Source: Thysanoteuthis rhombus (Eukaryota; Mollusca; Cephalopoda; Oegopsida; Thysanoteuthidae). From it: a stretch of DNA of 64,000 nucleotides. The stretch spans positions 48,409,781-48,473,780 of the forward strand of contig OY735202.1 in NCBI GenBank assembly GCA_963457665.1, given 5' to 3'. The notes beneath the pieces are model-generated. The model was not told the DNA's origin. It did no database searches and worked only from the letters and a program-made list of their open reading frames with translations. A program made the position numbers and the translations under genes. This document shows positions 4,500 through 46,762 of this stretch, piece after piece; the first letter of the stretch is position 1; each line of letters starts with the position of its first letter.

Positions 4500-5582
4500 T
4501 TTTGTATCTTACTCACCGAGGTAACGTTCATTTCTTTGTACTACTTGCGTGCTTAAATCTGCGGTAGGAAGTTCAAGTCATTATAGAAGTTGTCTATTTC
4601 TTCTTTGGTAGATTACGGAAAGGGAGCGTAGACTGAGATGATATCCAGTTTTGTACCTCTTTGAGAACAGCATGATAACGCTTGCCATGCGGCCTGAAAT
4701 AGTGTTGGGGATAGGCTGATTTGGAGTGGAGGTAATTGTGGGTGTCTGTGGGTTTAGTGTAGAGGGTAGTTTGGAGGTTTCTGTTGTCATCTATGTGTAT
4801 ATGTGGGTGTCTAAGAAGGCTATGGAGTCAGTGGATGTCGTAGAGTCATACTTAATAGAGTCATGTGCCGAGTTTATATGTATAAAGAAGTTATCTAGTT
4901 TGGCTTTTTCGCCTGTATATATGAAAAAAATGTCATCTATGTATCTACCATAAAAATGCAATCATTATATATCTCTGGGTAAATGTAGGTTTCTTCAAAT
5001 TTACCCATGAAGATAATAGCATAGGATGGGGCCGTTACTGTGCCCATGGCACAGCCTTTCAGTTTGAAGAAGTGTCTATTGTTAAAGTTGAAGCTATTTA
5101 GAGTTAGAATGTGGTGCATAAGAGTGATAATTGTTATTGTGCTGGGTTCTTTAGTAGTTCTATTGTTTAGGGCTTCTGTAAGTGCTAGGATACCTTCATC
5201 ATGTTTGATGTTGGAGTATAGAGATTTAACATCCATACTGACTAGAAGTGCTTTGTCTGGGATTGCTGGAATGTGTTTGGTTTTGTTTAGGAGGTCTGTG
5301 GTGTCACGTATGTAAGATCTAATTTATGTTGCAAAGGGTTGGATGTAGTGATCTACGAATTTGGATAGTTTGGTAGTGTGGCAGTTCGTAAAGGAGATGA
5401 CCGGTCTGCCTGGGTTATTTGGTTTGTGGATTTTGGGGAGTAGGTAGAACCTTGCAGTTTTGTGGAAGTGGGTTTCAGTATATTTTGTGTCCTTTTATCT
5501 ATCATGTTGCAATTGTGTAATTCTGTTTGGGATTGGGTTATCGTGTTTGTTTATTCGTTGAAGGGGTCTTTAGGGAGATCTT

Positions 5583-14566: not shown

Positions 14567-15785
14567 CGATACAAGTACCTAGGTGTCCTCAAATGTGACA
14601 CGATAAAATAGGAAGAGATGAAGGAGAAAATAAAGAGAGAATACCTCAGAAGGATAAGGGAAATATTAGAAACTAAATTAAACAGCAAAAATCTAATAAA
14701 AGGAATGAACACCTGGGCTGTGTCAGTAGTTAGGTATACAGGACCATTCCTAGGATGGACAAAGGAAGAGCTCCAGTCAATGGATAGGCGAACAAGGAAA
14801 CTTATGACGATGCATAAAGCATTACACCCTAGAGATGATACAGATAGACTATACGTTAAGAGAAAAGAAGGTAGCAGGGGGCTCATCAGCATAGAAGATT
14901 GTGTCCAGAGAGCTAAAGTAGTCATAGAAAGATATGTGCAAATAAATAGTGAAGAAATCATAAAGAGCGCGAGAGGTAGTGCAACGAGTAATAAAGTAGA
15001 ATACAATGGAACAGTACAGCAAACAAGAAAAGAAAGATGGGAAGGGAAAAATTGTACGGTGAGTTTAAAAGACAGATACAAGATGTAGCAGACGAGAAAT
15101 CATGGACGTGGTTACGAAAAGGGAACCTTAAGAGAGAAATAGAATAGTTCATCATGGCAGCCCAAACCAAAAGCATAAGGACAAACTACATAAAAACAAA
15201 AATCGACAGAACACAGCAAATGCCGCATGTGTGGTGAAAGAGATGAGACAGTAAACCACATAACTAGTGAATGTAGTCAACTCACCCAGAAGGTGTATAA
15301 GCATAGACACGATAGAGTAGCAACGATGATACACTGGGAACTAAGCAAACAAATGGGATTCGACCATGTGGAAAAGTGGTATCACCACAAGCCAGAGGCA
15401 GTTTTGGAGAATGGCCACCACAAGTTACTCTGGGACTTTGACATCCAAACTGACCACCTCATCTAGGGAAGAAGACCGGACTTGGTAATCGTAGATAAGA
15501 AGAGGAAGACCTGCCAAATAGTAGACGTTGCTGTACCTGCAGACCATAGAGTAAAAAAGAAGGAGAGTGAAAAACGGGAAAATACCAGGACCTAGCAAGA
15601 GAGTTAAGGAAGATGTGGAACATGAAAACCAGGGTAGTACCGGTCATAGTGGGCGCACTAGGAACTGTCCCCAAAACGCTGAGGGTGAGACTGGAGGAGA
15701 TCAGGATTAGGGGACGGATAGAGACCGTACAGACCACAGCACTACTGGGAACTGCACGGATACTGAGGAAGGTACTAGAGATATA
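14567..15785 (+). pseudogene. R2-like LINE, C-terminal ORF with RLE endonuclease
   Basis: C-terminal third of the polyprotein of a LINE carrying a restriction-like endonuclease (R2-like as commonly annotated; exact clade uncertain). In order: KYLGVL (14573), AVSVVRYTGPFLGWTKEELQ, TRKLMTMHKALHPRDDTDRL, KRKEGSRGLISIEDCVQRAK (to about 14920); a frameshift near 15045-15050; a CX2CX8HX4C zinc knuckle, CRMCGERDETVNHITSEC (from 15222); KWYHHKPEAV and LLWDFDIQ; stop at 15464-15466; then the PD-D nuclease core, RRPDLVIVDKK and TCQIVDVAVPADHRV (about 15473-15555); finally RIETVQTTALLGTARILRKV before the stop. The RT catalytic domain is absent, so this is a 5'-truncated insertion. Stops at 14609, near 15146 and at 15464 plus frameshifts make it dead. 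Confidence 0.88.
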
Positions 15786-32435: not shown

Positions 32436-32640
32436 GTCTCTTTTGAGGATGTGAGGTGATCCGACAAAATGTTGACAGAAGTGACAATTGGAAGGTGAAG
32501 AGAGTGAAATTGAGAAAAAAAGCAGGTATTACAACTCGAAAATATTTATCAGCACTTGGACAGGTTTCAGTGCACTTCAACAGCTGCCAGCGATCTTTTT
32601 CAGAGAAACCTTGCTACGGAGTAGAGGTTGAGGGAAGAAC
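32434..32640 (-). mobile_element. PLE-tail repeat family P, copy 3
   Basis: Minus strand reads CTGAAAAAGATCGCTGG, AGTTGTAATACCTGCTTTTT, TCAATTTCACTCTCTTCACC, GTCGGATCACCTCACATCCT, then AAAAGAGACAT and (TA)n. Matches copy 1 (5700-5860) in the same order. Confidence 0.72.
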
Positions 32641-32644
32641 CTCG

Positions 32645-32770
32645 AACATGTAAACAGCAAACAATTTTCTCTGCAACGCAGTATGTTTTCTCTGGAAAAT
32701 GTGGCTGGCACCCGTTTCTCCTTTTCACTTTCGCCAATATTCTGCCAGATCACCTCTCATCCAAATAACA

Positions 32771-32773
<3 letters not shown>
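32645..32773 (+). mobile_element. PLE-tail repeat family P, copy 4 (internally deleted)
   Basis: Plus strand reads AATTTTCTCTGCAACGC, TCTCTGGAAAATGTGGCTGG, CACCCG, then skips to CTTTTCACTTTCG, CTGCCAGATCACCTCTCATC and AACATA(TA)n. It is the inverted partner of copy 3, starting within a few bases of it, so the two form a head-to-head near-palindrome. Confidence 0.68.

Positions 32774-32858
<85 letters not shown>
32774..32858. repeat. (TA)n-(TG)n microsatellite
   Basis: TA 32774-32839 then TG to 32858. Tail of the plus-strand PLE-tail copy. Confidence 0.96.
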
Positions 32859-33059
32859 GTGCAAATCAGCCTCGCAGTTTGATATAATATAATAATATAA
32901 AGCCCCTTCTGATATGTAATGGATTTATTTCATAGACTGCTCGATACATGCAACTTTTTGGTATTGAAGTTAAGTTATTTTGATAAGGCCCGGAGAAGGC
33001 AAAAATATGAGCTAGTTTGTGTAGCGAATTCACATTCTACAATATATATATCTTCCAAC

Positions 33060-33205
33060 ATGGAATGGAGTACTCTGGTGGATGAGGATTATATATATCA
33101 CACAAGTTCAACCTCACTGACTGTCCAGTTCTATGAAGTAAGATACCAGCCTCCGGGTCTGGCGCTAAGGTTTCGATCCTGTCTCGTGGTACTGGATTGG
33201 ATAAT
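33060..33205 (+). mobile_element. Ribozyme-bearing repeat body (retrozyme-like), copy 1
   Basis: Dispersed repeat immediately 5' of the hammerhead motif. It is inverted relative to 46552-46762, sharing (on this strand) TGACTGTCCAGTTC, GATACCAGCCTCCGGGTCTG, GCTAAGGTTTCGATCCTG and GTGGTACTGGATTGG. GGTTTCGATCC resembles a pol III B box, but no A box is clear. On the minus strand both copies keep similar peptide text (RIETLAPDPEAGIL against RTETFASDPEANIL), which may only reflect DNA homology. Confidence 0.55.
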
Positions 33206-33264
33206 GGATAGTCTATAGCCATACTGAAGAGTTGTAATACAACGAAACAGCTGTCTGTGGATGA

Positions 33265-33270
<6 letters not shown>
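33206..33270 (+). ncRNA. Hammerhead self-cleaving ribozyme (type I)
   Basis: All conserved hammerhead core positions are present in order. Core box CTGAAGA (33224-33230) fits CUGANGA. Stem II is GTTGT (33231-33235) pairing ACAAC (33239-33243) with an AAT loop. GAAA follows (33244-33247). Stem III is the self-complementary ACAGCTGT (33247-33254). GTC is the cleavage triplet, with predicted cut after C33255. Stem I is CCATA (33219-33223) pairing TGTGG (33256-33260), with an outer helix ATAGT (33208-33212) pairing ACTAT (33266-33270) across internal loops. A loopless, self-complementary stem III is typical of Penelope-element and animal retrozyme hammerheads, which act as dimers. In those elements it processes the element's RNA. 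(TA)n follows directly. No activity shown here. Confidence 0.82.

Positions 33271-33312
<42 letters not shown>
33268..33312. repeat. (TA)n microsatellite after the ribozyme
   Basis: TA tract starting at the outer end of ribozyme stem I. Confidence 0.95.
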
Positions 33313-33314
<2 letters not shown>

Positions 33315-35240
33315 TATGGGGATATGCAGCTTAATCTTGGGTGAAATAAATTCAAATATAATAACATCTGAAGCAAATGGATATTTTATAGAGGCATAAT
33401 GAATTAAATAAAAATACTGGAATTTTCTTTCCATGAAATCGGATAGTTAATTGATTTGGGAAGATTTTTAGATCCCCGTTGCTGGGGGGAGAAATACATT
33501 TTTCTAAAGTGATCTTCATATGTTCCGCCAATCGCAATTGTCAAAAGTGAGCACACACATACTGCAAAATGTTTTTAATATCAATTTATCTCATTGCTAA
33601 CTAAATTATTTTGAATTCATCTATAATCAACGCACTAATCGAATTTTGGGAGTCTGACACACATGGGATAGGCCGGCACACTCTCCAAGACAGATCTGCG
33701 AATTAATATTGGTTTCTTTTGAATATACGCACGCACTCCCAGATCAAGCATATCATTACAGTTACATTGTAAATAGAAACTCCCCGCCCAAAAGCAATGA
33801 AATGAATTGTTCTGAAAACTGACAATTCACTTGAAAAAACAAAGGTTTCAAGGACTGAAAACAATGAAAAAATTTGGGCTGATTTTTTTTTAGTTCATTT
33901 GACAATTAACCTGAAAACAATATTTGGTCGCACGTCTGTCTGGGAGTGTGTGAGGACCTGCCCAGGGTTTGCAAAACTTGGTAAAAAAAAAGATATATGC
34001 GAAAGTACTGAAACATCACCAAAAATGCCCACATGTGTACATTCATTTAAACCATCTTTTAGTCCTGCAGTTTTTTTTTTTTTGAACGAAGAAATATATG
34101 AAAGAATGTATCATCTACCGCCTTGACGAATTAGAATTTCCTCCGGGCTTTAACGGGAATTTCTCCTTGTATTTAAACAAAGTATATATATCTTGAAATA
34201 TCTAAAAAGTGTCATGGGTATAATGAAAGTAATCACTTGGAAATATTTTTCAAAAAGTATATTTACGTTAAAAGTTATGCAATAAAGGTAGTGTAATACA
34301 TTATGATATCATATAACACCGCATATATTGATCGATTGGGAAATGTCCAAAAGTATATAACGTTTGTTTCCAATTTTTACCAATTTTGATGAATTTTGAG
34401 AGGGAATCAATTGTCTTCCTTGCATCCGTCTTAATATCAATCATAAATGACCCAAATAACCCTATATGGCCTGTCACCACACATCGCCGATGACCTTTTC
34501 TGTGAAAGAAATCTAGCCCCAAACCAAATTCTAGCTTCCTAGGTGCAAAACTGTTATCTAATACTTATTCAATTAGCTAGAAATGAATGACGTTTGATGA
34601 CCTCAAAAGACTTCTAAGATCAAACTCATGGCCTATGTCCACTGCTGTGAAGAGATGTACCCTTCTGCCAGATACTAACTCCATAGATACAAAAGAGGCT
34701 GGATAGTCCGGCGTCTCGAGGTGGAAATTGAATATCGTTCAGATGTTCCACGTGCAACCAATGGCGCCTATGTAGAAGTATGCAAATGTTAGTAGAGAAA
34801 AACATCATTTTGTCTTCATTCTACAAAAAAACCCTTTGTACACTTAATATTTGTTTTTTTAATGAATTTTCAGAGTTGTACATTAAATTTTTGGGAGTTT
34901 ATATTGTATATTTTGACCAAAAGGTTACTTTTATACAGGGTTCATTGAATAATATCGACCTTTTTTGCCAGTTCAGTTTTGGGGGAGTTTCTCCAATATC
35001 CAAATGCTATTCTTTATCGCCAGTTCAAAAGAATACGTTTCCTGAAATTCATGGTGTACCTTTTTTATGTGTTATCTTTGATCTTGATACTTTCGACCAT
35101 CACAATTCTTTTTCAAGATTATTGACTTCAAAGTAACAGACTTCAAATATCATAATCACGTTGCATATGAAATTTCACTAAGAAGATTTTTGAGATTGGT
35201 AAAACTATGCATCCTTGAAAGCTTCATAACAGTTAAGCAA
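33313..35240. other. Unannotated AT-rich stretch
   Basis: Largest frame is 34780-35136 (+, 118 codons; QMLVEKNIILSSFYKKTLCT and onward). It has near-normal complexity, but is Phe-rich and unrecognised, with no splice or promoter signal. Nothing else supported. Confidence 0.4.
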
Positions 35241-46085: not shown

Positions 46086-46551
46086 AGTTTTTTCGAGTGG
46101 TTAGCTCTTCCCTAATTTCAAAAGAAATATTACGGAACAATTCAATCTAAAATTATCTAAAATTGATTGAAAAAACGGTTATGTGAATAGTCAAAAAAAT
46201 GCGTTCACAAAACTTTGCCCAACATTGGAAACAAAAAACCGTCATTTGACATTCGTAGATAAAAAAGAATACGCATATCTCTATTCCTGATCAGTTGGAG
46301 CATATTTTTTCCACAAGTATTTTTCCGTCCATCCACACAAAACATTATCATTATAGAATCAATAAAAGTTTTGTGCTTTGATACAATGATGATGATAGTA
46401 AGCGCAAATTGTTGCACATATATGTAAATTGCCAATACGGATCCATCAGTGGCAGGGATGATGATTATATATACGTATATATATGTATATATACGTACAC
46501 ATTAATGTATAATATATGTATACGTAATATATATGATATATATACATTATT
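46086..46551. other. Unannotated stretch
   Basis: No feature recognised; the last 90 bp are degenerate TATA/CGTATA repeats. Confidence 0.45.
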
Positions 46552-46762
46552 GTGTCATCCAGAAATCTTTACTGTAGACTCTCGATTACCACAAGGCAGG
46601 ACTGAAACCTTTGCTTCAGACCCAGAGGCCAATATCCTACCTCTGAGTTTCGGAACTGGACGGTCAGTAAGGCTGAATTTAAGCAATATTAATTATGGGT
46701 TAAATTCCCCGTCCACTATGGTGCTCTATTCCTATGGAAGAGCATGTGATGTACAAAACAAT
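46552..46762 (-). mobile_element. Ribozyme-bearing repeat body, copy 2 (ribozyme core lost)
   Basis: Reverse-complement homologue of 33060-33270. Anchors on the plus strand: GTGTCATCC (46554), TAGACTCTCGATTACCACAA, GGCAGGACTGAAACCTTTGC, TCAGACCCAGAGGCCAATAT, GAACTGGACGGTCAGTAAGG. Between GTGTCATCC and TAGACT, where copy 1 holds the hammerhead core, there are only about 18 bp and no CUGANGA or GAAA box. Confidence 0.6.

Follow-up and report, generated by a model that had tools for sequence, protein, structure and literature searches.

The window, i.e., the whole stretch of 64,000 nucleotides of Thysanoteuthis rhombus DNA analysed here, very probably holds a copy, truncated at its 5' end, of an animal non-LTR retrozyme, which would form circles from multimeric RNA and be copied at (TA)n, most likely by a Penelope-like element (PLE). 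The element is a member of a published class, the animal non-LTR retrozymes, described between 2016 and 2020, and the retrozyme copies examined mostly share their (TA)n landing sites with a larger Penelope-like element. As reported for the class, the RNA is cleaved by the hammerhead, ligated to circles, and copied by an unnamed non-LTR enzyme (PMC7229834).

The ribozyme can be read from the sequence. A complete type I hammerhead, with every conserved core position present as had been predicted, occupies positions 33219–33260 of the plus strand, and its cleavage site is predicted to lie after C17 at 33255, before T33256. Its parts are the following:

33219–33260 (+): type I hammerhead ribozyme (sequence, Rfam RF00163, family covariation)
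33219–33223 (+): 5' strand of stem I, CCATA (sequence)
33224–33230 (+): core box CTGAAGA (sequence)
33231–33235/33239–33243 (+): stem II, GTTGT/ACAAC, with AAT between (sequence)
33244–33247 (+): core box GAAA (sequence)
33247–33254 (+): palindrome ACAGCTGT, stem III (sequence; double-hammerhead energy)
33256–33260 (+): 3' strand of stem I, TGTGG (sequence; one wobble, T33222-G33257)

Three points of the original prediction held in part. The check that it proposed, i.e., alignment to the Rfam Hammerhead_1 model (RF00163), gave a match at 33217–33262 over the full 45-position model in a search of 1.5 kb, but the score of 23.4 bits (E 0.0084) lies under the gathering score of 34. Regarding the self-complementary stem III, the palindrome ACAGCTGT is in place, but its sequence gives a monomer only 2 bp with an AGCU loop, and pairing over 8 bp requires two molecules or two units. 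Finally, the outer helix ATAGT/ACTAT pairs throughout in the window copy, but only 10 of 98 distinct 70-mers have it in full, and it was dropped as a feature of the family. The Rfam output also contains miRNA families (E up to 5), which sit on (TA)n runs and were rejected as microsatellite artefacts.

As was also proposed, the ribozyme sits in a dispersed, protein-less repeat: all 40 genomic places scored among 2,415 first-look candidates, namely the window's own and 39 others, match positions 33150–33330 of the window with at least 89% identity. Thousands of hammerhead ribozymes of such kind are present in the genome. The strict pattern CTGANGA-N8..26-GAAACAGCTGTCTGTGGATGAC has 6,178 matches (3,110 on the plus strand and 3,068 on the minus strand) in the 2.73-Gb genome versus 0 for the same pattern read backwards as a control, which agrees with the earlier view that a chance co-occurrence was unlikely. 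A genome search with RF00163, which scored 73 out of 299,496 first-look candidates, gave one place (L009, 35.6 bits), and this is a diverged copy of the window's repeat. When four other loci were compared with Rfam at E up to 1, the ribozyme was detected in two (L042 and L004), with no match in L021 and L036, whose ribozymes have core or stem changes; therefore, the curated model undercounts the retrozyme family.

Constraint on the structure was examined in 107 ribozyme regions, 103 of which keep length and register, with 94 of them distinct. The second pair of stem II is T-A in 57 of these distinct copies, A-T in 34, G-T in one, and unpaired in two, so that 92 are paired, versus 49.4 on average and 64 at most in 1,000 shuffles. 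The remaining pairs are too invariant to be informative. Between two subfamilies, with 22 and 18 copies that are each 220 nt or longer, differences occur in 25 of 212 columns of the body and in 2 of 42 columns of the ribozyme, these two being both sides of the second stem II pair, by which the subfamilies were defined. The whole core is present in 22 of 28 regions from L001–L028, a set in which the window copy is L001, L009 comes from the Rfam search, and L021 is counted twice; L030–L099 were chosen with a pattern in which most of the core is prescribed, so that core identity there is partly selection. The independent point for constraint is the rarity of unpaired combinations among the 94 copies. 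The conservation expected of genomic homologues is found in both respects, as the core is kept and a compensatory change is seen in stem II.

In RNAfold ensembles of 70-mers, calculated with an energy model that ignores core and loop contacts, the probability of stem II exceeds 0.5 in 83 of 105 copies and that of stem I in 13 only; in the window copy stem I has a probability of 0.003, because an upstream alternative pairing competes. The double hammerhead formed via the 8-bp palindrome lies at a median of 2.7 kcal/mol above the dimer optimum (−23.7 versus −26.4 kcal/mol for the window copy). Cleavage would be expected to be better as dimer than as monomer, and axolotl ribozymes are reported to cleave better as dimer (PMC7229834). 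Folded as circles, the units are 58–63% paired, with z of −1.4 to −1.9 versus mononucleotide shuffles, i.e., only mildly better.

The ribozyme stands at the end of a non-coding unit of 297–313 nt (310, 305, 313, and 297 nt in four tandem loci), with a G+C of 0.42–0.44. The window holds two copies, and (TA)n runs border the one under study:

33051–33265 (+): 5'-truncated retrozyme copy (body and ribozyme), ending at GGATGAC (BLAST against other copies starts at 33051; row L001 of the boundary table)
33042–33050 (no strand): short (TA)n run that borders this copy on its 5' side (sequence; row L001)
33268–33312 (no strand): (TA)n run directly after the element, read as landing site (sequence; 91 of 101 rows have a 3' run of this kind)
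46508–46745 (−): second, older retrozyme copy, ribozyme core lost (BLAST pieces 46745–46587 and 46561–46508; sequence)

The boundary table derives from 116 homologous segments merged in 99 loci. Once the 15 in which no 3' end was recognised had been left out, 101 rows remained, and three of these are repeats (L045 is the copy of L013, and L034 holds both copies of L033), which leaves 98 distinct copies. In the rows printed, the 3' end falls shortly past GGATGAC, commonly as ...GGATGACACAATAAT. The 5' ends vary among the 112 rows, out of 137, that reach the ribozyme: nine run on into a further upstream unit, 12 start 1–19 nt past the cleavage site, 30 start at unit positions 78–91, and others elsewhere. 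L042 starts, by eye, exactly at the cleavage site, and the start of L020 is ambiguous as it follows a GT repeat; cleaved templates would be expected to concentrate 5' ends at this site, and no such excess is evident in the 112 rows. Masked N runs lie just upstream of the retrozyme copy in L035, L057, L073, and L078. Single, 5'-truncated copies prevail in the sample, together with some head-to-tail multimers. The search for tandem copies suggested at the outset was positive, not only in the nine rows that continue upstream, but also with a head-to-tail junction query, matched at all 40 places scored among 535 candidates (L021 included) by at least 94 of 100 bases.

For the flanks, a (TA)n run was counted when it measured at least 10 nt and, at the 3' side, lay within 60 nt of the end. 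By this measure, 91 of 101 rows (88 of 98 distinct copies) have (TA)n at the 3' end and 47 rows (46 distinct copies) have it at the 5' flank, four of the 101 rows being masked there; three of the ten rows without it at the 3' end (L047, L059, and L091) continue into another unit. Random points in the window have (TA)n in 6.2% of cases by the 3' criterion and 5.2% by the 5' criterion. In the same loci, a tRNA-like SINE has (TA)n at 2 of 11 3' ends and 2 of 29 5' ends, and a LINE at 5 of 22 and 1 of 34, respectively, both being small controls from loci chosen for carrying a retrozyme. Two loci carry duplications that follow (TA)n on both sides, L017 with 39 nt aligned and 36 identical, and L044 with 24 nt aligned and 23 identical, and their scores of 63 and 43 compare with a maximum of 29 in 981 shuffled pairs; for this reason, (TA)n is taken as a target at least in these two. 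No other of the 99 rows aligned scores above 29, and target duplications sought as exact matches are, a few excepted, no better than in shuffled pairs. In L044, 29 nt of unexplained sequence separate the left duplication from the element.

The PLE is represented in the window by one fragment:

4701–5581 (−): PLE fragment, proposed mobiliser (91.8% identity over 883 columns to L100; RVT_1 E 1.1e-6, 28.9 bits, cut-off 29.6)

This fragment starts beside a (TA)n run and has another retroelement-like repeat at its other side. Its 128-codon open piece is matched at all 150 genome places scored among 3,565 candidates, many of them with an open frame of 809 codons. In L100, this frame combines RVT_1 (E 2.9e-14) with GIY-YIG (E 8.7e-4, 20.0 bits, below the cut-off of 22.6), as expected of a PLE, the GIY-YIG domain being given as a mark of these elements in the available text of PMC12910113. 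A sequence search of solved structures with the PLE gave no useful match. Some of the PLE matches fall in open frames of 1,348–6,838 codons, which probably arise from long (TA)n runs reading open.

The ends of the PLE were examined in L100 and in ten more copies with 809-codon frames. Its 3' end, AAGTACACAT, is present in eight of the ten added copies, all eight running into (TA)n, and L107 and L115 have other sequence at the expected position, their ends not being located. Thus, with L100, nine of nine located 3' ends are in (TA)n, as are three of four visible 5' ends (L100, L104, and L112, not L116), seven more lying beyond the region examined. Because its located 3' ends all run into (TA)n, the young PLE is the best candidate mobiliser of the retrozyme, and the common landing site is an indirect pointer to a common enzyme. 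About 110 nt before its (TA)n, the PLE has CCACTGATGATGAGAGAAATCTCGAAACATGTATGG, hammerhead-like by eye, which would form a minimal motif with an extra U before stem II (L100:4862–4897) and goes unmatched in Rfam at E up to 1. A variant in L072 has GGGA/TCCC in place of GAGA/TCTC, possibly a compensatory change; in this same locus, a PLE 3'-end fragment (84.6% over 143 nt) directly adjoins the 3' end of a retrozyme. LINE-like reverse-transcriptase remnants are seen by eye at window positions 14612–15085 (+), where Pfam gave no match up to E 0.1, and on the minus strand below 4701, the latter being the LINE used as control for 3' ends.

The course of events that we infer, from RNA cleavage and circles to priming and trans-mobilisation, would run as follows. 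Retrozyme RNA would be transcribed from multimeric copies, and hammerhead cleavage after GUC would release units of ~305 nt, which would then be closed to circles. A nick in a (TA)n microsatellite would free a TA-rich 3' end able to anneal to AAUAAU, just downstream of the ribozyme, and to act as primer, whereupon the reverse transcriptase of another element, most likely the young PLE, would copy the circle. One turn around it would yield a full unit, further turns multimers, and early stops the truncated majority, so that the copies would have a constant 3' end in (TA)n, would often be truncated at the 5' side, and would now and then be multimers. In its most specific form, this proposal is that of a matched pair, a hammerhead retrozyme with the PLE that mobilises it, each specific for (TA)n, in which the ribozyme places the AAUAAU priming stretch where copying of the circular template begins; to this form we give an even chance.

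Other explanations bear on the landing site and on the enzyme. It is unlikely, albeit conceivable, that a LINE of the genome moves the retrozyme and that the (TA)n of the PLE is coincidental: LINE-like repeats do occur in the window and the loci, and LINEs or PLEs have both been named as possible mobilisers (PMC7229834), but the single LINE 3' end examined is followed by (TA)n only 5 times in 22, and (GAT)n tails occur among the cases printed. The element could also be a retrozyme for which (TA)n is a tail made in copying rather than a landing site, in which case the common (TA)n would be uninformative on the enzyme. Simple-repeat tails are frequent among retroelements, and 54 of 101 rows lack (TA)n at the 5' flank (four of them masked there); however, the 47 rows that have it are about nine times the background, and L017 and L044 present (TA)n plus adjoining duplicated sequence (39 and 24 aligned nt) on both sides, which makes this explanation a doubtful one.

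Regarding the nature of the repeat, it is improbable that a SINE-like repeat captured a hammerhead, now an inactive passenger. Such an origin would suit the prevalence of single, 5'-truncated copies, a B-box-like GGTTTCGATCC noticed by eye, and predicted folds that disfavour stem I, but stem II has changed in a compensatory way between the two subfamilies and tandem junctions are common. Moreover, the tRNA-like head of a tRNA-derived SINE was not found, since ARAGORN reports no tRNA in window 32500–34000, where the copy is 5'-truncated, and four loci with longer units (L004, L021, L036, and L042) match none of the tRNA families at E up to 1. As for a chance resemblance to the hammerhead, the Rfam score under the gathering cut-off speaks in its favour, but the thousands of matches against none for the reversed pattern, together with the covariation of stem II, make it exceedingly improbable.

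The retrozyme assignment, to which the original prediction had pointed along with PLEs, agrees with the anatomy of the unit. The element resembles the animal non-LTR retrozymes (Cervera and de la Pena 2020, PMC7229834) in having a type I hammerhead with a conserved core (at an Rfam score below the gathering one), a short stem III, and a palindromic loop; in its non-coding unit, within ~170–400 nt and below 50% G+C; in its dispersed and tandem, at least dimeric, genomic copies; and in the autonomous PLE that coexists in the genome. The alignments show no evident LTR, primer-binding site, or polypurine tract, features that the class lacks. The element differs in that single 5'-truncated copies prevail in the sample and the ends are in (TA)n. 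The other comparisons are with the portions of text available for each source. PLEs with minimal hammerheads (cited in PMC7761336) share the palindromic stem III, the genome, and the (TA)n flanks, whereas the retrozyme is non-coding and carries another ribozyme. Terminons (PMC12477314) likewise have a target-complementary stretch adjoining a hammerhead, but are giant, coding, and telomeric. The schistosome and newt repeats (PMC4918200; PMC7229834) are also short, abundant animal repeats with a hammerhead; those of schistosomes hold a full tRNA, unlike the retrozyme in the regions searched.

Hammerheads in a squid are already in print, and the kind of element is known. The open-licence papers searched yielded no report under the pairing of hammerhead ribozyme and cephalopod, although the giant squid paper does count them: its available text lists 235 hammerhead 1 ribozymes among the non-coding RNAs of the draft genome (PMC6962438). 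Like those described here, they are Rfam hammerhead matches in a squid genome, but in that text they are placed among cis-regulatory elements and not tied to a mobile element or mechanism. For Octopus vulgaris, a repeat annotation from 2026 counts, among recently active insertions, 893 SINE families left unclassified; its text does not use the word "ribozyme" (PMC13282606).

PLEs have been named as a strong candidate for the enzyme that copies animal retrozymes, by coexistence and shared hammerheads (PMC7229834). In this squid, the retrozyme and a young, open-frame PLE share an unusual landing site, which the SINE and the LINE of the same loci do not to that degree, and this common landing site makes the question of the copying enzyme testable at the bench; if the matched pair is true, the enzyme moving an animal retrozyme would be named. 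Beyond this species, short repeats filed as unclassified SINEs, or counted as Rfam hammerheads, in cephalopod genomes may be retrozymes.
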